A DNA stretch of 64,000 nucleotides from Liolophura sinensis. Taxonomy: Eukaryota > Mollusca > Polyplacophora > Chitonida > Chitonidae. The translations under genes were made by a program, and so were the position numbers. The notes under the pieces are model-generated. The model made no database searches. It saw only the letters and a program-made list of their open reading frames with translations, and had not been told where the DNA came from. This document shows positions 568-62,100 of this stretch, one piece after another; position 1 is the stretch's first letter, and every line of letters begins with the position of its first letter. The DNA is taken from assembly GCF_032854445.1 (NCBI RefSeq), contig NC_088300.1:10662001-10726000 (forward strand). The letters run 5' to 3'.

Positions 568-3117
568 GTAAGTCCGCCTCCCGTCGCTTGATCCTTTAGA
601 TCTTTTTAACTTTGTCCTGGCAGTTTTTGTGACAGTATACAACCACCAACACGTACGTGATTTCTGGTGAGTTTCCCCTCTCACAGGTCAGCTATGCATT
701 AGTAGAAAAACAACAGAGCCCGCAACCTTTTGTGTCAATGTAAAACAATCTTGTTTCTTTATCAAAGTTTTGCTCTATTTCTGAAGCCTGGTGACCACCC
801 TCCCCCCTTTTACATTTAGGCGTTGTTTAAAACTGGTCGCAATTCCACAACTGAGCTGAATTTAGCCTGTAATTTTTATCTGACGTACCCAGGCTCTTTT
901 TTACGCAGCTACTAAGTTGTAATGATTTAATGTTTGTTCTCATGCCAGTGATCCGTTCGAGACATGAGATGGGATGTATGATGACAGTGCGCATGATCGC
1001 GGAAAATGGCGACTTGTTCTGGGTTAATGTTGTGATGCACGTACGTCAGGGACTGGTTCCCGGCAGTAACGACCCCGTTATCGTCTGCGTCAATCAAGTT
1101 GTCAGGTGAGTTGCCACACCTCTCAAAAAACCACCTGGGATTAAAAGGTCAAGGAGAAATGTAGTGGAATTATCGGTGTTAGACTTTTACAATATCTACA
1201 TGAAAATACCTATATGTTTAAATCTCCTGTATGTTTAAATCCCTTTTTGTTTAATTTAGTATCTTACTCGCCTTGATTCCTTTAGCTTAAGTTTCGTCTC
1301 TTCTTGTTTCACTTAAGGTTTCTCCCATTTTCCATTTTGTAACTGAAGATTTGTCTTTGTTTTGTCAGTGACCAAGAGGCTTACCACTTCAAGATTCAGA
1401 GCCAGCTGTATTCGCTTCACGCTACGCGAGGACCAGACTACTTTTGTCACCCTGGATATCCCGGAAGTAGCTCTCCTGGGATGGAGGGAGAGATGTACAT
1501 GCAGTCGTACCAGATCCCTGGCTACTATCCTCCTGCGGTCATGAGCTATCCTTCCCCATCCGGCAACTACGGTAACTACGTGGTGCCAGAGCAGTTCTCA
1601 GGAAGTTGCACCTTCAACCAGTCCGGTATAGCTGTGCCTTGTGGTGAACCAACCGACAAAAGGGAAAATTGTACCAGGAAAGCAGAGCACGCCCAGGCGG
1701 TGGAAGCCCTCAAGAGGAAGTTGGGAGAGAATGGACCTTGTCGGGGAAAGAAGGCCTCTGGAATGAGCGTGAGCCACAATGGCGGATACCCCCCGGGTGC
1801 TGGTCACTTTGGGTGTGTCTCCAATGGTCTTACGTCTCATAACCAGGGCTATCTGATCGGAGGAGTAGCCAACAACTACAACAACCCGACCCAGTCTTAC
1901 TCCTACGGCCCAACTCAGGTCATGGCGTCTCCAATGAACGGTCACATTCCTGACCTTTGCTTCTCTCTCAAGGGTGAAGTTCCAGATACTAGCACTCTGG
2001 CCACCTTCAAGGCATCTCCTGTACACACCAATATGTCCATGTCACCTGGTCTTCCACCCACCCCGGACCCGTCTCCTACCAGCAAGACCGCCACCGTCAC
2101 ACCAGGGATAATAAAGACGGAGACATCGAGCGAAGTCCTTCCAGACTGGTACCTGACCCCCGAGGCCTCTCCAGGCTCACCCTCCTCTGTCAGCGAGGAA
2201 GATGTCACGGCGTTTGCTAGGAAACTCGAGGCCAAAATTGAAGCTGAGCTGATAGGGTCCTGTCAACAACAGCAACAATCGCCATCAGTTTTTGCCATAA
2301 GTCTGGCTAAGAAGAGAAAGACAAACAGAGACTTACCAGTGATGGACGGATCCACTGTGGACAACTTCTTCGAAGCTGTTATCGGAGAAAAGCTGGAAAT
2401 CCTGCCACAAGCTTCCAAAGAGAACCCTCTGAAGATTCCCAAGAGGGAAATCCCCTTCATGGAGCCCATGGACATCGAGTCGTTCTTTAGGCAGTCCACT
2501 CAGCATGGTTTTCAGGGCGATCAGGCCAACCATTTGAGCAGACCGATTTCAGCAGATGTCCAGATCGTCCCTGACCAGTCTAACCCGTCCCCCAGCTACG
2601 GCCCTGCGTCTGTGGAAGGTGGGGACTACCTGGCGGATGAGATGTCCAGTGGAGGTATTGACCAGAGTCGAGTAACGATGACCGTCTCTGTAGCACTGGC
2701 AGAACCACACACCGTTGACCACACCATTAGCCACACCCTCGGAATCGAGGAGAACGATGAAATGCTTAATCAACTGCTGTCATGGGCATCCAATACTGGT
2801 GAGTGCTCGTACTGCTTTTTCAAGAACTCTGACAATAATCCATGTAGTATATATTGTTGTCGTCCTATCACAGGGTTCCATGAAAATGGTCCGGAAATGT
2901 TATGTCTATAGTTTATAGGAATGTTTCTCAGGCAAGTATGATAGCAATAGACAGATGACTCTTTCTGTGTTTTTCAGGCTAATTCATCTAGACAGAAATG
3001 CTGTTAAATGCTTATTCTCATTCTGAAAGATGTAATATCGACCTAGGAGATTGTTCTTATGTGAGATTTCTGTTGTACATTTCAGAGGCCCACCCCGCAC
3101 CAGACCCGAACCAGTAG
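461..3117 (+). CDS. dysf: bHLH-PAS transcription factor, dysfusion/NPAS4-like, 3' part of gene (PAS-B and activation region)
   Basis: Four exons with matching phases (461-567, 949-1105, 1369-2798, 3086-3117) encode the second PAS domain followed by about 450 residues of low-complexity activation region. The PAS part carries the conserved blocks KSWYAMLHPEDL and RHEMGCMMTVRMIAENGD, then FWVNVVMHVRQ and IVCVNQVV, which I recognise as the PAS-B fold of the insect dysfusion / vertebrate NPAS4 group. Such factors dimerise through bHLH and PAS domains, usually with ARNT-type partners, and act in the nucleus on E-box-like sites. The bHLH, PAS-A and start codon are outside the window to the left. The C-terminal part has a short Q run, a basic AKKRKTNR patch (possible nuclear localisation signal), two TP-x-x-S motifs and an IKTE sumoylation-like motif. 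The family call rests on motif memory, not an alignment. The last exon is uncertain because two acceptors fit. Confidence 0.82.
949..1105 (+). CDS. dysf: dysfusion/NPAS4-like exon, second half of PAS-B
   Basis: The exon lies between CCAG (ending at 948) and GTGAGT (starting at 1106). It is 157 nt, phase 1 in and phase 2 out, and encodes the beta-sheet half of PAS-B, including RHEMGCMMTVRM, WVNVVMHVR and IVCVNQVV. It is too short to stand out as an open reading frame, but its phases match both neighbours and its motif content is strongly conserved in the family. Confidence 0.88.
1369..2798 (+). CDS. dysf: dysfusion/NPAS4-like large exon, activation region
   Basis: The exon starts after TTTTGTCAG, keeps phase 2 from the previous exon and ends in phase 1 at GTGAGT (2799). 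It encodes about 477 residues. A short conserved-looking start (DQEAYHFKIQSQLYS) is followed by Tyr/Pro/Ser-rich sequence. At 2051-2077 and 2153-2173 are LPPTPDPSP and LTPEASP, both fitting the Cdc4/Fbw7 phosphodegron shape. IKTE at 2111-2122 fits the sumoylation consensus. Five glutamines lie near 2263-2278 and a basic patch at 2306-2329. Acidic/aromatic stretches such as DNFFEAV and DIESFF resemble activation motifs. An in-frame ATG at 1481 is internal and is not the start. Confidence 0.85.
3086..3117 (+). CDS. dysf: dysfusion/NPAS4-like terminal coding exon (alternative possible)
   Basis: The acceptor TTTCAG ends at 3085. Joining in phase 1 gives ten residues (EAHPAPDPNQ) and TAG at 3115-3117. 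A stronger pyrimidine tract with TTTTTCAG ends at 2977; using it would terminate the protein at once (G then TAA). Reading through the intron would instead add a tail of about 37 residues. I cannot choose between these from sequence alone. AATAAA at 3633-3638 could serve the 3' end. Confidence 0.5.
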
Positions 3118-4564: not shown

Positions 4565-5365
4565 CAAATAATAACTCAATACGTTCTTTTCTGCTTAAAT
4601 GACTACGCACCTTCATAACACATCACTAGTGTTAATGGCACAAGATAAAAACTGTTACCCACAGCGGAAATATGTTATTTTATGATTTTACTTTTTTGTG
4701 TTGTAAGTTTGTACCTAACTAAGTGTAGGATGGATTTCCACGCGATGGCGCTCGTTGCTGGACGACTTGACGTCATCGGTTGCGTCATGTATTACTCAAG
4801 GTGTCGACAGGATATGGAAGATGGGCTCTATTGGCACAAACGTTGCTGTGGAAATATTATTGTGCATTTTGTATTTAAAATATATTTTAGTGTTGTTCTC
4901 ATCACGATTTTCATTTCGCAAGGAAAGCTTTTATTACTGTACCATTTTCACACCATTTGTCATGTTGTCATCTGTTTGTTTTTGCATACTATAGACGTTA
5001 TAATGATTGTCACATGTCGTTTACATTTTCCTCTAATGTTGCATCGCTTAACGCTGATGATATATACACAGGTAGGCGCTGGTCGCCCCACCCTGTACGG
5101 CCGCTGGACGGTCTCAGAGATTTACACAATGGTCTGTTTACAGACTTAAGCGCTGCTGTGCGGTGTTTGTTTACCGTATATCTGTTGAAAAAAAAGCATA
5201 TATACAAACACATAAGTATATCTATATATTTGGCATAATTTTGCATGTTTTTAAAGGGTTGGTTCAATTTGTAAAGCCGTTGATCAGTGTAGATCACGTG
5301 ACGGCGATATACAGACAGCCAATAAACTGAATCATGTTTGTCACCAAACTCATGTTTTTTCTTCT

Positions 5366-5767: not shown

Positions 5768-6016
5768 CTAAACTCTATGGATCCTACATAAGTAATTCCC
5801 CAAAGCTTTAAAAACTAAACTGGCATTTTTAGGTGGACAAAGCACGGTCCTCCTTGCTGGGTTAACAATTCCAACGTCTACAAAGTCAGAAAGGAATATT
5901 TGTCTTTGAGCTGTGTACTGCGGACACTCGAGTAAAACATGATGAGTGATCTCCTCAGCCTGACAAACATTACACAGATCTGAATCTCCTACCTTGAATC
6001 TTTTTAAGCAGAACAA
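5768..6016 (-). pseudogene. non-LTR retrotransposon (LINE) remnant, 3' end of ORF2
   Basis: The minus-strand frame of about 80 residues contains DLCNVCQAEEITHHVLLEC followed by PQY and ends in a stop. This CxxC...H....C zinc-knuckle-like block is typical of the extreme C-terminus of reverse transcriptases of non-LTR elements. The rest of the polymerase, expected further right on this strand, is absent because minisatellite DNA begins there. It is a 5'-truncated dead copy and the clade cannot be told. Confidence 0.6.
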
Positions 6017-10954: not shown

Positions 10955-11322
10955 GAGTGAGTGAGTGAGTGCTTGGGGTTTAACGTCGTACTCAACAATT
11001 TTTCAGTCATATGACGACGAAGGAATCATTAGGGTGCATGCAAGTGTAATGTGCCTCCTTGTTGCAGGACGTTTTTCCACCGCTCTTTTATTTAGTGCTG
11101 CATCACTGAGACGACTTACCGAAGGCAAGTAAGCCGCCCCGCCCGAGCCATTATACTGATACGGGTCAACCAGTCGTTGCACTATCCCCTTCATGCTGAA
11201 CGCCAAGCGAGGAAGTTACAACTTCCTCTTTTAAAGTCTTAGGTGTGACTAGACCAAGGATTGATCCTGGATCTACCGGTCCCGAAGCGGACGCTCTACC
11301 AACTGTGCTATCCGGGCCGGTC
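10955..11322 (-). mobile_element. tRNA-headed SINE, family B, copy 2
   Basis: The minus-strand head reads CCGGATAGCACAGTTGGTAG then AGCGTCCGCTTCGGGACCGG, a tRNA-like A-box arm, followed by GATCCAGGATCAATCC as B-box region. The left end is GTGAGTGAGTGAGTGCTTGG then TTTAACGTCGTACTCAAC. It is better preserved than the copy at 9679-10022. Confidence 0.85.
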
Positions 11323-45228: not shown

Positions 45229-45234
45229 TTTATT
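45229..45234 (-). other. polyadenylation signal AATAAA
   Basis: The hexamer follows the stop codon of the CS-alpha-beta peptide gene by about 120 nt on the same strand. Confidence 0.65.
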
Positions 45235-45360
45235 GAGGATGGTTTTGGTAGTGCAGATCACGGATCTACGACAATGATGTGAATGGTGGAAGGGCCGCTA
45301 CTCTGGACTGCAAGGGACCTAACCCCTGATACCTCCGCCCATCTCTGCTTTTGCTAGGTC
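45229..45360 (-). CDS. CS-alpha-beta peptide exon 4: last codons, 3' UTR and polyadenylation signal
   Basis: TGCTTTTTCAG ends at 45361. The exon begins GACCTAG, which completes a Lys codon, adds Thr and stops at 45356-45354. AATAAA lies at 45234-45229 on the minus strand, 120 nt downstream of the stop codon. The coding part is only seven bases; the rest is the 3' UTR. Confidence 0.72.
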
Positions 45361-47855
45361 CTGAAAAAGCATCGAAATGAGTTACAGTTCTCAATTCGAT
45401 ACGTTTTAAGCGTATACGTTTGAGCTAAAATGCACTCTACAGTCAATTAAGCTTGTGCATGTACAAATAAGTTAAAATCAGTATATTTCACTCATAATTA
45501 GCCACTAAGGCGCAAGTGCATTGATCAAAACTGGTATACAATATTAATATAAGGCCTAATTTTATTAACACTGTTATTATTGTTAATAAGATCAGTAGTG
45601 TATCGGTTAAGTAATGAAAGGCAGCTGCTAAAATCCGTTCAGGGAGTCATACTATCCTGTTCATACTGTCCGAGCTCTTCGCAGCAGAGGCTCTTCACGG
45701 ACGGAAATATCATTTCCATTCCATATGTACTTACAAATCCACTTACTGTTCTACTTATCTCCCTAGACACTAATCAATCCACTTAATGTTCTACTTATTT
45801 CATTATGCACTAATCAATTCACTTACTGTTCTATTTATCTCACTAGACACTAATCAATTAACTTACTGTTCTACTTAACTCACTAGGCACTAATCAATCC
45901 ACTTACTGTTCTACTTATCTTACTAGGCACTAATCAATCCACTTACTATTCTATTTATTTCACTATGCACTTATCAATCCACTTACTGTTCTACTTTTTT
46001 CACTATACACTAATCAACTCAGTCACTGTTCTATTCATCACACTAGGCACTAATCAATCCACTTACTGTTCTATTTATCTCACTATGCACTAATCAATCC
46101 ACTTACTGTTCTACTTATCTCACTAGGCACTACTCAATCCACTTACTATTCTATTTATTTCACTATGCACTAATCAATCCACTTACTGTTCTACTTATCG
46201 CACTAGGCACTAACAAATCCACTTACTTGCATTTACACTTGCCGCTCACACATTTCCCTCTCCATGTATTTTCCCAGACGTAGCAGTACATACTGCAGAT
46301 GTGACCAGAACAACCTCCCAAAGGAGTCTGACCTGTACTGGCTGAAAGGAACAGCAACATCCATATTGAGAGTCCTGCCCAACTTCGGTGTTTAGTTCGA
46401 GAAATCGTTCCAATGGATGACGAAGTATTAAGAGACCGCTTAAGTGTCACACAGTCCATACATGACCCACAGCCTAAGCAGCGAGTTAAAATCCAGTTTA
46501 AACATATTAAAGTTCTCAGGTTCCAATTCAGATTATAGATCACATCAACGCTACCCAAAGATAATCCCAACGAGTTTTTGGCACTTATAAATAACATTCC
46601 CATAAGTGTACTAACTAGAGGTCTGCCTACAACTGTAAGTACACAGGGTAACTTACCTGCTTCAACGACCATCTGGGGATTCAGATCTATACCTAAAATG
46701 AAAACAATACTGGCTTCAGCAGAGTATGTATTTGCATTATATTATAAAACGTGGCGTTGAAACAACTGATTACATTTATCTTATAAATAATAGTATGAAG
46801 GAGAAAGAGCAAGGACACGTCGCTTCCTGTCCGAAGCATTGCAGACTGCTCTCACTGGCCATTTTTTGTTGCGCCTCTGATTATGTCGCATGACTTAGTA
46901 AGTGCGTGGCGAATGCTTGTTCTGTCACATTAACTTTAAAGGTTTCAAGGTTAAGAAAACCAGGGGTTTTTGTAGCTATAGTATGTATGAAAACTAGATA
47001 CATCGATTGGCTTTGAAGTGTACCATGCCCACTATTTACTGTAGTTTACAGATGTTTATATAGATCTTTCAAACGAAGGAAGAATGAGTGAACACCACGT
47101 ATATACCTTTATATGATCTATAAAGTCAATCTGTTATAAATATTCCAAAACATTATCTGCGAGAACGTTGACATTACAAGGTTCAAATCTCATGTCTAAT
47201 TCAGGCGACCAGTAATGAGGCTTTGACAATTAAGTTTCTGCAATATTGTTCTATCATGTTGATCAAAACCGTGTATATTTAAACCAACTCTGGCGTGTTT
47301 ATGATGAAAGACATTAGCACAGAGTATATCACCGGCCCTAAGATATATTGCTGTTCTTGCATTATTGGATACTTAAAATATCTAGCGATATCTTAAGTTA
47401 TATTAGAAAATACTAAGTAAAATGATTATTATTATGTTCGGGAATTTTACACATATGGGTGAGGGAATATAGGTACTGCGGCTTTACAACACCAATGGGG
47501 TTTTCCCGGGCTGTGATCAGTTTCCTCCGTCCATAAACCTGACATCTTTCGTACATGTGAAATAGTTTTGATACGGCATTACACTCCAACATATATAAGT
47601 ATTTAAATTGCTCATGTAGGCCTGTAATATTAACCCAAAGTAAACAAAGTAACAAACAAATAACATTGATAGACAATTGCATTAAATCCCACCTGTTTGG
47701 TAGGTAATGTTGATGTAACGGTACAGCAAATAAGGCATGGAAAGGTGATAAATAAGAGAAGAAAGTTTTTTTTTCATGACGTATAAAGAGATGTATGGTA
47801 ACTTACTTGTGAATAGGGAGATCACCATCAATGCAGAAACAAGCGAGGAACGCAT
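45354..47855 (-). CDS. secreted six-cysteine CS-alpha-beta peptide (defensin / K-channel-toxin-like fold), complete four-exon gene
   Basis: Exons 47855-47807, 46692-46657, 46341-46227 and 45360-45354 (coding parts) join with phases 1, 1 and 2 to 207 nt, 68 residues plus stop. Residues 1-17 form a hydrophobic signal peptide. Residues 18-29 are a short linker from a 36-nt exon. Residues 30-68 carry six cysteines at 39, 44, 48, 59, 64 and 66. The pattern C-x4-C-x3-C-x10-C-x4-C-x-C, with CxxxC, GxC and CxC, is the CS-alpha-beta signature (pairing 1-4, 2-5, 3-6). The loop lengths and an RGKC tetrad resemble short potassium-channel-blocking toxins more than classical eight-Cys mollusc defensins, and the Lys of RGKC sits where those toxins have their pore Lys. 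The role is unproven: antimicrobial peptide, channel ligand or signalling peptide are all possible. No named family member was recognised. Confidence 0.82.
45710..46226 (-). repeat. 40-bp minisatellite starting at the exon 3 splice donor
   Basis: On the minus strand 13 units of exactly 40 bp begin at 46226 with GTAAGTGGATTTGTTAGTGC and continue as GTAAGTGGATTGATTAGTGC, CTAGTGAGATAAGTAGAACA. The first unit's GTAAGT is the donor of peptide exon 3. Ten or eleven further units keep GTAAGT. Confidence 0.93.
46227..46341 (-). CDS. CS-alpha-beta peptide exon 3, mature six-cysteine domain
   Basis: The acceptor TTGCTGTTCCTTTCAG is strong. The exon encodes all six cysteines, with Trp and Tyr in the helix-loop part and a Lys-rich C-terminus. 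It ends AA before GTAAGT. If unspliced, the same bases give Lys and an immediate TAA (46225-46223), so both outcomes make nearly the same peptide. The 40-bp minisatellite starts at the very next base. Confidence 0.85.
46657..46692 (-). CDS. CS-alpha-beta peptide exon 2, 36-nt micro-exon
   Basis: TTGTTTTCATTTTAG precedes and GTAAGTTACC follows. The exon is symmetric (phase 1 on both sides) and encodes a 12-residue linker (IDLNPQMVVEA plus a split Ala), probably part of the leader or a propeptide. Its donor decamer is identical to that of exon 1. Being symmetric, it could be skipped without changing the frame. Confidence 0.75.
47493..47610 (+). mobile_element. SINE family A, degenerate, inside intron 1 of the peptide gene
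   Basis: GGGGTTTTCCCGGGCTGTGA, CAGTTTCCTCCGTCCATAAA, TCGTACATGTGAAATAGTTT and TACGGCATTACACTCCAACA follow the family A core in order with many changes. Confidence 0.6.
47807..47855 (-). CDS. CS-alpha-beta peptide exon 1, signal peptide
   Basis: The ATG at 47855-47853 has AAG before it (A at -3). Sixteen codons follow, then one base before GTAAGTTACC. The hydrophobic core is Leu/Val/Ile-rich with Ser and Thr toward the end. The phase-1 donor matches exon 2, and the start is chosen because it is the first in-frame ATG preceding the hydrophobic run. Confidence 0.8.
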
Positions 47856-47879
47856 CTTCTCTGCAGCTAGGTGGCTAGT

Positions 47880-47888
47880 GTATATAAA
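47880..47888 (-). promoter_or_regulatory. TATA box of the CS-alpha-beta peptide gene
   Basis: TTTATATAC on the minus strand lies about 25-33 bp before the ATG. At usual spacing, transcription would begin almost at the start codon, so the leader would be very short, or a different upstream start is used. Confidence 0.5.
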
Positions 47889-47892
47889 GACA

Positions 47893-47901
47893 GGAAGTCC
47901 C
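47893..47901 (-). promoter_or_regulatory. Rel/NF-kB-like site of the CS-alpha-beta peptide gene
   Basis: GGGACTTCC on the minus strand fits the kB consensus GGGRNTTCC and lies five bases upstream of the TATA box. Immune peptide genes of invertebrates are often driven by such sites. Regulation by Rel is inferred from the motif alone. Confidence 0.5.
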
Positions 47902-56150: not shown

Positions 56151-59100
56151 CTGTAAGACGAAGGCTGCCTCGTTAATAGCATACAATGAAACTAACTGGT
56201 CATTTTTAGACATACTACGGTGTAGCATTCTAATTAGCTAGACGTACGTCAGTCTTCCAAAACTTCTGACTGTTAGCACTCAGAAATTAACTGACGGTGC
56301 AACAGTCTCCCACAGCTGATGGCTGTCAGAAATTAACTGAAGGAGTAGCAGTCTTCCACAACTAGCGATTGTTAGCACTCAGAAATTAGTTGAAGGTAGA
56401 AGAATGTTCCACAACTATCGGCTGTTAGCACTCTGAAATTAGCTGAAAGTGTAACAGTCTCCCACAGCACACGACTGTCAGCACTCTGAAATTAGCGGAA
56501 GGTGTAACAGTCTTCCACAGCTATTGACTGTTAACATTCAGAAATTAAGTGAAGGTGCAGCAGTCGTCCGGAAGTATAGACTGTTAGCCTTCTAAACCTA
56601 GCTGAATTCTCAGCAGCCTTTCGCAACCAGCGACAGTTAGCACTCAGAAATTAGCTGAAGTTACAGCAGTTTACCGCAATTAGCAACTGTTAGCACTCAG
56701 ATATTATCCAAAGATGCAATGGTCTTCCGCAACTAGTCATAGTGAGCACTCAAAAATAAGCTGAAGGTGTGGATGTCTTCCACAACTAGCGACTGTTAGC
56801 GCTCATAAATTAACACAGATGGCCTCTTGTTTGGAGAGGTCCACTTTTACAACTTATAATAAACTAGTACACCTCAAATATATACTTTGCACACTCCACG
56901 AATTTGCCTTGATGGTATAGTATATTATAATCAACTTGTAAATACCGCTAATATGGAGAGCATGTTATGGGGCCACTAATACAGTTAATCCTAAAATGTG
57001 AGATGGTCGGTTGTATTATTCTGTAAGGAATTCTTTTTTTCTTTAACTAATCGCGATTGCCTCACCATAAAATAAGGCAACCACACACCCCACAATATAT
57101 CTGCTTCGCCAGTGTCCTCAAATACCATGTTTATGTAGGCCTTTTATTCAGATAACAATTCCTCAGGAAGAGCGTTGACGTAAAGTTAATTCTGGACTGT
57201 TTTTGTGACACCTTAGTTTAGAGGCGCTCTTAAAGAAGGCAAAGTGCTAATTCCAGATGTTTAATAGGTTGAAGTTAACATCTCTGTACTTTTCATGGCT
57301 TAAGCGATGTTGGTAGGTGGTGCAGAAGGTAATATCACTTAAGCATTTAAAGTAACAGTTAGAATAAAACGCTAGCTGAAGTGAAGTGACAAGAGATCGA
57401 TTACGCTAGTTACGTGTGACCAATTGCCAGCTACATGTAACATACTGTCGTTGTTGCTCTGGTTTCACTCTTTTATATGATCAATTTACCTGAGGGTACA
57501 GTTGTTGATATAATGGGTGTCCATTGTGTCGTGGAGACTGGTTCCACCGAGTAACTGTCCCTTGTGGAGGTGAGAGCCACCGATGGGTTTGGACGGGCGG
57601 ATTGACTGGACATCCAGTATGTCCTTGGCTTGGCGCTAGATGATGTCGTGAACGGACGTGATGTGGTTGCCTTCTCCGAAATTGATGAGTTGAAACAAGG
57701 GGTGTTCGGGTATTGATCTCCCAGCGAAGACGCTCCATCGTCCTCATTAACAGTTACTGTAGACCAAGAGTAAAACTGATTGTAGGCATATCTAGGACAG
57801 TAAAAGTCGAGAGTGCCCCAAGCTCAAGAAAACATTGCACATGTTAACTTAGTTAAGCTCCCTGCTGGGCACCACACACGGTGTTATTCAACACCAAGTT
57901 TTACTGTTGTGATTGAATGCCATGAACATAACGTGTAATGCAAAATACAAGAGGTCTGTTCAACTTATTATTGACGATTAACACTTTGATCTTATTAAAT
58001 CAGAACTTACTCCTGAAACCGTAAACAAACTAAGTTGAACTGGGTGAAAACTAGGTAGGTGTATGGTGTCGGCTTGGGCCCAAAGTGATGCCTAGTCGCG
58101 TCGGCTTGGACCAAAAGTGATGCCTAGTTGCGTCGGCTTGAGCCAAAAGTGATGCCTAGTCGCGTTGGCTTGAGCCAAAAGTGATGCCTAGTTGCGTCGG
58201 CTTGGGCCAAAAGTGATGCCTAGTCGCGTTGGCTTGAGCCAAAAGGGATGCCTAGTTGCGTCGGCTTGAGTCAAAAGTGATGCCTAGTTGCGTTGGCTTG
58301 GGCAAAATGATGCCTAGTCGCGTCGGCTTGAGCCAAAAGTGATGCCTAGTTGCGTCGGCTTGAGCCAAAAGTGATGCCTAGTTGCGTCGGCCTGAGTAAA
58401 AAGTAATGCCCAGTAGCGTCGGCTTGAGCCGAAAGTGATGCCTAGTTGCGTCGGCCTGAGTAAAAAGTGATGCCTAGTCGCGTCGGTCTGAGTCAAAAGT
58501 GATGCATAGTCGCGTCGGCTTGATCCAAAAGTTGATGCCTAGTCGCGTCGGCTTTCGCCAAAAGTTTATGCCACCAACTTTATTTATACTGTGTATTTTT
58601 ATAAGAAATTTTTCATTACAAACATAGCTATAATGTAAGCATTAGTACTTTAGTGGAAATCGAGACAAATAAAACTACATGTAAAGGTGCTTAGGTGCGT
58701 AGCGTATGGGCTTTTGGTCAGTTTGGGGGCTTAGTATACCAGCCTTTCATTCATTTATTCATTCATTATAGCGTCCCCCCTCCCCACACCACCCCATCTC
58801 TTGGCACAAAGGTGGCGCTCGAAGAACACACAGTTTTAGGCCAATCATATATCATATGGTGGGAACACAAACTGTGATGAAAAGTGTGTATCACATATAT
58901 AACTTTGTCCTGTTCACACATATCTTGTTTGTGTGTAAGATGTGTGTCTGTATGTATCTGTGTTAGCCTGCACTCATGATGTGTCTTGGATTAGCTTTTA
59001 TCCCCGTGAATGGACCTGACTGATAATATGTTTGAGAGTACTTACTTTGAAAGCAGTCTTTAGTCTGCAGTATGGAGTTGTAGTCAGTTACATGGTAGTT

Positions 59101-62100
59101 TCTCGTCAGTAAGAACGGATCCTGGAGATAGTACAGCTTGCACTCTTCTCGTTTATTATTATAGGTTAAGGCCCAGCATTCCAAGCCGGACCGAGTTTGT
59201 GATGTACAATACTGTGTACAATTCGCTTGGCTGACTGCATACATCTCGCTAGCTACAGTGGTGACAGACAGGGCAGTTTTTGCCTTGGTTTTAAATGAGC
59301 AGGGCGCAGCTGAAATATGAAATAAAAAACAAATGGCGCAACAAGATTAAGACACTGGCCAGAAAAGACACCTATCAAAGATGGTACCTACCAGAGACAA
59401 CACCGACCAGAGATTACACCGACCAAAAATTACACCGGCCCGAGACCATAGCGACCAGAAATTACACCAACCAGAGACCACAGCGACCAGAGATTACACC
59501 GACCAGAGACCACAGCGACCAAAGATTACACCGACCAGAAATTACACCGGTCAGAGATTACACCGACCAAAGACCATACAGACCAGAGATCACACCGGTC
59601 AGAGATTACACCGACCAGAGATTACACCAACCAAAATACCATACCGACCAGAGACCACACCGACCAGAGACAACGCCGGCCAGAGGCAACACCGATCAGA
59701 AACCACACCGATCAGGGAATACAGCCAACAGAGATTACGTTGACAGGAGACCACACCGGCCAGAGAAGACTCTGTCATAAGGTCGCAAAGAACAGAGACC
59801 ACACCGTTCTGAGAAAAGAACGAACACAGAAGACACTGACCAGAAATCACACCGACCAGAAAAGACACCGACCTAAGACCACACAGGCCAAAGACCACTC
59901 CGGCCAGAGACTACACCGACCAGATATTAGACTGATCAGAGACTACACTGACCAGAGATTACACCGACCAGAGACCACACCGACCAGAGACCAAACCGGC
60001 TAGGGACTACACCGACCAGATATAAGGCTGATCAGAGACTACGCCGACCAGAGATGGCACCGGCTAGAGACTACACAGACCAGAGATTACACCAGCCAGA
60101 GACTACATCGACCAAAGACTACACCGACCAGAGACCACACCGGCGAGAGACGATACCGACCAGATATTACACTGACCAGTGACGACACCGGCCAGAGACC
60201 ACACCGGCTACAGACTACACCAACCAGAGACCATACCGACCAGAGTGTACGCCAGCCAGAGACAACACCGATCAGAAACCACACACACCAGGGAAGACAC
60301 CGAACAGAGATTATACTGACCAGAGACCACAGCGACCAGAGACTATACACGGACATCAAACTACACTGATCAGAGACGACACAGACAAGAGACCACACCG
60401 ACCACAGATGAAACCTACCTCAGATGACAAAGGTATCAAACTACACTAACCAGAGACGACACCGACCACAGGTCACGTCGAATACAGACTACAGCGAACA
60501 TAGACCACACAGACGATACTGCCAAGGGGTCACGCCGACCAGAGACCACACTGACCACAAACTACACCGACCAGAGGAGACACTGACCTGAGACCACCGA
60601 CCACAGACGATACCAATCAGAGAAGAAACCGACCATAGACAGTGTAGCGGTCTACACACAGTAAGCATACAGCGGTCCATACACATCGTAGCACACAGTA
60701 GGACGATATTATGAGAATTCACCAAAGAAAAGGCTTCTCACCTCTTTGATGCATACAAACATAACTTTCCTTCTGATTACATTTTGTTGTCCGCCATTCG
60801 AAGCCTTCCTGGCGTCCCCACGTAGTATAAGTACATATCCGGATGCAGAAGTCTGAGTTCAGTAAGTTGGGTTCGACTCCATGGAAATCAAGATATGTCA
60901 CTGGACTACAGCCATTCACCCATACCACATGTCGCTGGCCAGGCGTTGCGAGAATCATGTTCATCCATATCTCCATGGACCGACTGTAAAGACAAACACA
61001 AAAAGACATTACAAGAATCATGTCAATCCATATTTCCATTGTCTTAATGTAAAGACAAATGCCCCCCCCCCCCCACCAAAAAAAAAAATTTGTCTTTTCA
61101 TCCCTGTTCATTCATATCTTGATCGCCTGACTGTAAAGACAAACGCAAAAACATTACGAGAATCTATCCATTGTGTGACTGTCAAAGTCAGGAATATGGC
61201 CTTATCTGCATCTTATTACTCAAAAGGTAGGTGTAAAACTCAGGAAAATGATCCATATCTTCATCTCATGACTGAAAAGAAAGACGTGAAACTCAGGAAG
61301 ATGATCCGTATTTGCATCTTATGGCTTTAAAAAGAGATGTAAAAAATCAGGATATTTTCCACATCTGCATCTGATGAATGTGAAGGGACAGATAGTAGTC
61401 TAACACAAGACATTATTAAACTAAAATAAATTTATGGTTTTCTTTTATCTTGGTGTAGTCCGAACCCCCACTGAAAAGAACGCAGAGAGAGGGTATCTAC
61501 CCTTCAGCAGGTCCCTGACTAAGCCGCCTACATTAAAGCCACAGCCCGAAGGTCAATCCCAATTTCTAATGTAAAACAACCTTCACTTTTTTAACACTTA
61601 CAGTGATGTTTTCCTCCTTAGCTCTTTCAAAATAGATTTGATATACATGTATTCCCTTTTCGTTTCCGGTTGCATCAGACGGCCCCCGCTCGCCACACAT
61701 CTCTTCCGAGCTTCATTCCATGGGAAGACATTTACGAAATACTGGACATCTGTGCGAGTCGTTGGAATACCGGAAGCTTGTACTGACCCTACACCGTCAA
61801 GAACAGTTTAGCTTTAGTGGTGTAAAAGGAAAACTTTAGCTGATAGTTGTCATGTGACTAGCTCTAGACGTGACCGGTAGATATTGCAAAGCAAATAAAA
61901 AATGTGAATTATTTATTTCTTAAAACGATAAATACCGAAGTTTGAAAAATATATACAATAGAGGCTGGTATGAAATAGTTATATCTCTTTTAGTTGCCGT
62001 ATCATCCCAGTGAAGGGCAGGAATTTCGCATATACCTCGAACAGAGTAGTGTAGTGCCTGTTATCGCAACTGCAGCAAACATCTAAGTATATAGCAAGTC

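Follow-up and report, generated by a model that had tools for sequence, protein, structure and literature searches.

Invertebrate defensins with six cysteines and the short scorpion toxins share one cysteine array in the classification of Tarr (PMC5116183), and six-cysteine spacing cannot separate a toxin from an antimicrobial peptide. An unsplit cysteine exon behind a phase-1 intron is common to mollusc and arthropod defensin genes, and in scorpions the defensin genes consist of two exons separated by a single phase-1 intron (PMC6435467). Chitons belong to Aculifera, a group described as sister to the remaining molluscs (PMC9366239), and the only chiton defensin report that we found concerns a big-defensin transcript in Chiton olivaceus (PMC7203481); among the entries listed in our literature searches, no title or abstract opening dealt with a six-cysteine chiton defensin, which is not proof of absence from print. 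Here we describe a 64,000-nucleotide stretch of DNA from the chiton Liolophura sinensis (Polyplacophora, Chitonidae; C6:10662001-10726000, referred to below as the window). A small gene that is missing from the annotation very probably lies in it and encodes a secreted defensin-type peptide with six cysteines.

The putative gene lies entirely on the minus strand, with its ATG at 47855-47853. The coding part of exon 1 (47807..47855, 49 nt) comprises the start codon, a predicted signal peptide, MRSSLVSALMVISLFT, and one further base, and so ends in phase 1. Exon 2 (46657..46692, 36 nt), which is symmetric (phase 1-1) and possibly skipped, encodes the linker SIDLNPQMVVEA, and exon 3 (46227..46341, 115 nt, phase 1) encodes a complete cysteine domain, C-x4-C-x3-C-x10-C-x4-C-x-C, with the six-cysteine core CSGHICSMYCYVWENTWRGKCVSGKCKC and its GKC gamma-core at 46229..46312. 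Putative exon 4 (45229..45360) completes the lysine codon AAG and adds ACC (Thr), the stop codon TAG and the 3' end, within which an AATAAA is found at 45234-45229. Joining the four exons across predicted introns of 1114, 315 and 866 nt yields a 68-residue precursor, MRSSLVSALMVISLFTSIDLNPQMVVEAASTGQTPLGGCSGHICSMYCYVWENTWRGKCVSGKCKCKT. An initial annotation of the window had described this exon chain and cysteine motif, together with the in-phase joining, the stop codon and the AATAAA, and all of them are present as it had described; its proposal of a signal exon followed by a six-cysteine exon with an array of the cysteine-stabilized alpha-beta (CS-alpha-beta) type is likewise supported. Exon 1 would supply the signal peptide, and the mature domain, probably QTPLGGCSGHICSMYCYVWENTWRGKCVSGKCKCK(T), would come entirely from exon 3; the putative mature peptide has a net charge of +4 and an isoelectric point of 8.9.

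Both the six-cysteine motif and the signal exon exceed chance. The strict cysteine motif occurred once in the six frames of the window, where the scan detected no second copy, and in none of 200 dinucleotide shuffles, whereas a loose six-cysteine form was matched twice in 200 such shuffles. Under the filters used, no first exon other than exon 1, on either strand of the window, combined a signal-like sequence and a phase-1 end with a strong donor. When the 3 kb upstream of exon 3 were shuffled, a comparable signal exon arose in 4 of 1000 cases, an optimistic figure in that the filters were chosen after the gene had been seen. The donors of introns 1 to 3 ranked 65, 4 and 65 among the 8516 GT sites of both strands, and the acceptors 68, 39 and 38 among the 7457 AG sites (ranked by matrix score in both cases).

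The gene is single-copy in the genome searched, which comprises 609,464,459 bases. The genome paper, which uses the name L. japonica, gives a size of about 609 Mb (PMC11068029), and according to a correction notice the species had earlier been taken for L. japonica (PMC12441733). A DNA search of this genome returned one match for the gene, and a protein search with the window peptide returned one full match and one weak match (E = 0.57) with two internal stops. No annotated relative of the precursor was found in a database that includes the NCBI proteins of Liolophura sinensis; this search covered close relatives whose length is 0.55-1.75 times that of the query and which share three 5-letter words with it, and would miss distant ones. 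The gene is thus probably absent from public annotation. The initial annotation had expected that methods based on open reading frames would overlook it.

The cysteines of the peptide fall at C2, C3, C4, C6, C8 and C9 of the reference array of Tarr, and the n-loop of 4 residues lies within the 4-16 allowed for six-cysteine members. The GXC gamma-core is present at the fourth cysteine as GKC, and the peptide matches the defensin pattern of PMC6435467 once the His of that pattern is relaxed. Exon 3, as delimited by predicted splice sites, is an unsplit mature exon behind a phase-1 intron. The reading that we favor, and consider somewhat more probable than its negation, is that the locus is a genuine chiton gene, present in one copy, whose secreted and cationic product with six cysteines belongs to the CS-alpha-beta (invertebrate defensin) type and most likely serves host defense. 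After splicing and secretion, the mature peptide would be oxidized to three disulfides (C1-C4, C2-C5 and C3-C6) and would act on microbial envelopes through a cationic hairpin carrying the GKC gamma-core.

On contig C10, profile searches of the genome uncovered a cluster of defensin-like exons (L002-L007 and L009, 14.85-17.82 Mb) that apparently lack annotation and have the arrangement C-x5-C-x3-C-x9-C-x4-C-x-C. Seven of the 18 matches to Toxin_2 (E up to 10, none above the cut-off) fell in this interval. Toxin_2 was also matched in 5 of 14 control genomes, never above the cut-off, and weak single matches therefore mean little. Defensin_2 gave nine matches in the genome, one of which, on C10, exceeded the cut-off (25.8 versus 20.4 bits); in the control genomes it was matched in 3 of 14, in none above the cut-off. 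A protein search seeded from the cluster returned six matches including itself, all on C10. Among six C10 entries scanned as peptides, four listed Toxin_2 at 20.4-24.0 bits, under the cut-off, and the other two were both L003b; Gamma-thionin reached up to 22.8 bits, also under its cut-off, and L009, though lacking the first cysteine, scored 27.2 bits with Defensin_2, above the cut-off. All four C10 exons tested failed the defensin pattern of PMC6435467 only at the His. A search for annotated relatives of the C10 family gave two candidates, none at E up to 10. The cluster is less easily read as plain defensins in view of its profile, which matched 68 Protein Data Bank (PDB) sequences at E up to 1, with a 'designer toxin' first (2.4e-6), alpha-KTx chains following and plant defensins appearing from 2.6e-4, a ranking on which the richness of the PDB in scorpion-type toxins bears. 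The profile of the cluster plus the window peptide behaved alike.

A signal-like first exon was correctly placed in two of three 10-kb stretches of C10 (49 and 55 nt); none was found upstream of L002 under the filters used. In the predicted gene L003b, a 49-nt coding exon 1 is joined directly to the cysteine exon across a phase-1 intron, and the second predicted gene has a 55-nt exon 1, a phase-1 intron and a cysteine exon. That a separate C10 gene is predicted to share the layout of the window gene, down to the 49-nt coding part of exon 1, and that a second one does so with a 55-nt exon 1, counts for the defensin-type reading of the window gene. Close kinship between the window peptide and the C10 cluster was considered and rejected, in that 311 of 999 scrambles of the peptide scored at least as well against the C10 profile. 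Separately, at L031:5074-6590, one signal exon (5074-5122) precedes a pair of cysteine exons that differ from each other (near 5824 and 6468) and that both end in a GKR-containing tail; the pair may reflect a tandem duplication or the alternative use of mature exons, and no strong acceptor was found for the second one.

Several observations weigh against the defensin-type reading of the window gene. The codon usage of exon 1 is non-coding-like, albeit in a weak test trained on one neighboring exon, and the C10 profile does not single out the peptide, as noted above. The pattern CX4-15CX2HCX6-9GX1CX4-9CX1C (PMC6435467) is not matched in full, since Tyr replaces the His before the third cysteine. 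The search of CS-alpha-beta hidden Markov models proposed in the initial annotation brought no profile of Pfam or NCBIfam to its cut-off: Defensin_2 (PF01097, cut-off 20.4) was not listed for the peptide at E up to 10, with filters that drop most weak matches, NCBIfam returned nothing, and the best weak match was to a toxin model rather than a defensin. Two single-sequence AlphaFold2 models (38 and 31 residues) contained three strands and no helix, an outcome that the initial annotation had named as refuting its proposal; the helix was indeed missing twice, but models from a single sequence with predicted local distance difference test (pLDDT) values of 61.5 and 68.7 decide nothing, and Foldseek returned one meaningless match (E 9.5) for the model with a pLDDT of 68.7. 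The stretch around cysteines 2 and 3 has a mean helix propensity of 0.87 and a strand propensity of 1.20, compared with 0.89-1.03 and 0.78-1.15 in four C10 peptides. Taken together, the propensities and the strand-only models are a weak mark against a CS-alpha-beta fold. They would suit a six-cysteine secreted peptide with another fold or an endogenous role, regulatory or in mineralization, which we regard as unlikely given the low confidence of the models and the full cysteine array with its gamma-core, which is of CS-alpha-beta type (PMC5116183). It is rather improbable that splice-like sites were assembled by chance around a random motif, or that the gene is dead: the empty search for annotated close relatives and the loose-motif matches in shuffles count toward such an origin, but the strict motif and the signal exon exceed the shuffles, and three good donor-acceptor pairs lie in compatible phase.

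The initial annotation had leaned toward a channel toxin, placing the peptide closer to the short potassium-channel-blocking scorpion peptides. The names of the best matches agree with this: the best Pfam match was Toxin_2 (PF00451), and the best PDB chains were scorpion potassium-channel toxins. The similarity itself is at noise level, with 11.4 bits for the precursor and 14.7 bits for the mature part against a gathering cut-off of 25.1, and E = 0.08 in the PDB. Toxin_2 was also listed for 3 of 29 cysteine-fixed scrambles (17.3, 11.6 and 9.8 bits), the real peptide ranking second of 30, and scorpion toxins headed the PDB results of both scrambles searched, which had been picked before any of their results were known (BmTX3, E = 0.024; alpha-KTx 3.6, E = 0.082). 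Because cysteine-fixed scrambles can match scorpion toxins about as well, the toxin likeness consists mainly of cysteine frame and composition, and we rejected toxin homology as evidence after these controls. The spacing on which the comparison had been built is common to six-cysteine defensins and short toxins, and although the n-loop is short (4), the combination of KCXN with a short n-loop that indicates a likely toxin (PMC5116183) is absent, the peptide having KCVS. Support for the channel-toxin claim does not extend past spacing and weak similarity.

We give only a small chance to the reading of the peptide as a ligand of ion channels, akin to the short potassium-channel blockers, in which the lysine of RGKC would plug the pore. 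The spacing, the 4-residue n-loop and the RGKC are as in charybdotoxin, whose kind supplied the best-named PDB matches; Toxin_2, the best Pfam match, was beaten by only one of the 29 scrambles; and certain true defensins block Kv1.3 (PMC12894229). On the other side, the Toxin_2 score is 10 bits below the cut-off, both scrambles searched against the PDB did about as well, and KCVS stands in place of KCXN. In potassium-channel toxins the dyad rule calls for an aromatic residue after the last cysteine, where the chiton peptide has Lys, and typical venom peptides form multi-copy families, whereas this gene is single-copy; to our knowledge, chitons, which graze, have no venom. Slighter still is the prospect that a chiton peptide on the defensin scaffold independently gained a potassium-channel-blocking surface (RGKC, short n-loop), directed against predators, parasites or the animal's own hemocyte channels.

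Within the defensin-type reading, exons 1 and 3 are the firm part of the gene model, and exons 2 and 4 are doubtful. When exon 2 is included, the hydrophobic core and the mature peptide lie 12 residues further apart and no site has a good cleavage score (at most 4.0), but it can be skipped in frame to give a 56-residue precursor that scores 8.6 at STG|QTPL; exon 2 is doubtful because skipping it gives the better predicted signal peptide. Exon 4 changes the product by the terminal Thr only and matters little, because a transcript that retains intron 3 reads TGC AAG TAA and stops right after the Lys. A 40-bp minisatellite (45736..46227, minus strand) begins at the exon 3 donor and copies it, with 11 GTAAGT in a row upstream of one acceptor, and read-through from exon 3 into this array ends the protein at the same Lys. 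We give a little under an even chance to a transcript built like that of the two-exon C10 gene, with exon 2 skipped and with exon 3 as perhaps the last coding exon. L003b, whose direct junction of exon 1 to the cysteine exon has a cleavage score of 9.8, and the immediate stop after exon 3 favor such a transcript; the exon 2 donor, fourth best of 8516 in the window, and the good acceptor (68 of 7457) disfavor it. This alternative concerns the transcript and is compatible with the defensin-type explanation.

A single open frame of 172 codons (46741-46226, minus strand), absent from the initial annotation, spans exon 2, intron 2 and exon 3 and has a leader-like stretch directly before the cysteine domain. 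It is very unlikely that this frame codes and itself provides the start and the leader of the peptide (RTKHRSWAGLSIWMLLFLSASTG|Q). In its favor, the frame through intron 2 stays open for 105 codons, as did only 0.3% of 4000 sampled stretches presumed to be non-coding, 172-codon open frames appeared in 8 of 100 shuffled versions of the non-repeat window, and the leader has a cleavage score of 10.8. However, the codon usage is not coding-like, with 85% of the same presumed non-coding stretches scoring at least as well, the frame has no Pfam match, and its hydrophobic residues fall on the polypyrimidine tract that precedes a strong acceptor. We tentatively read it as chance plus the polypyrimidine tract.

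Just 5' of the ATG (47881..47901, minus strand) lie a weak kappaB-like element, GGGACTTCCT (47901-47892), and a weak TATA-like element, TTTATATA. The window contains 26 kappaB-like matches, for an expectation of 0.04 per 100 bp, and both elements could be of chance origin. Elsewhere in the window, a 522-residue open frame (1343-2908, plus strand) matches LOC135468411 isoform X2 of Liolophura sinensis, an NCBI protein, with 100% identity across 92% of the frame, and its Pfam domains are PAS domains. A PAN-domain exon is present at 58963-59346 (minus strand; Pfam E 5.3e-6), and a frame near 60719-61111 reads as C-type-lectin-like, with no Pfam model confirming it. At 11246-11317 (minus strand), an Rfam transfer RNA (tRNA) match of 32.8 bits, where ARAGORN calls none, is perhaps a tRNA-derived repeat. 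Minisatellites make up about a quarter of the window (masking of the arrays leaves 48,126 of 64,000 bases), with units mostly of 16-60 bp and arrays of 1-2 kb at 6.4, 33.6, 35.7, 40.4, 49.8 and 59.4 kb.

The window peptide probably joins the known defensin-type family, in a mollusc class for which we found no described six-cysteine member, and we infer for it an antimicrobial function. Together with the C10 cluster, in which the interest lies as much as in the window gene, it would extend six-cysteine CS-alpha-beta peptides to chitons, would suggest that the public annotation of the Liolophura sinensis genome misses such peptides, and bears on the question of whether mollusc defensins began as six- or eight-cysteine forms.

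Compared with known systems, the chiton peptide shares with mussel mytilins and MGD defensins its standing as a mollusc peptide of putative CS-alpha-beta type, and the four exons and three introns of mytilin genes (PMC7168163) recall the predicted four-exon model; both mussel groups have eight cysteines, and mytilins an acidic C-terminal extension, neither of which the chiton peptide has. With alpha-KTx peptides and Toxin_2 it has in common the cysteine spacing, the short n-loop and the RGKC before the fourth cysteine, and it differs in KCVS for KCXN, in lacking an aromatic residue after the last cysteine and in its score of 14.7 of 25.1 bits, exceeded by 1 of 29 scrambles. The C10 cluster differs by one residue in each of two loops, and its profile does not recognize the window peptide above scrambles; it has the same order of signal exon (predicted for two genes), phase-1 intron and six-cysteine exon. 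Relative to six-cysteine invertebrate CS-alpha-beta defensins (the Tarr array and the scorpion BmKDfsin genes), the chiton peptide lacks the His before the third cysteine and a Defensin_2 match, its fold of this type is putative, and its gene has a possible extra 36-nt exon, but it resembles them in cysteine order, in loop lengths within range, in the GXC gamma-core, in its cationic character, in its predicted signal peptide and in an unsplit mature exon behind a phase-1 intron.

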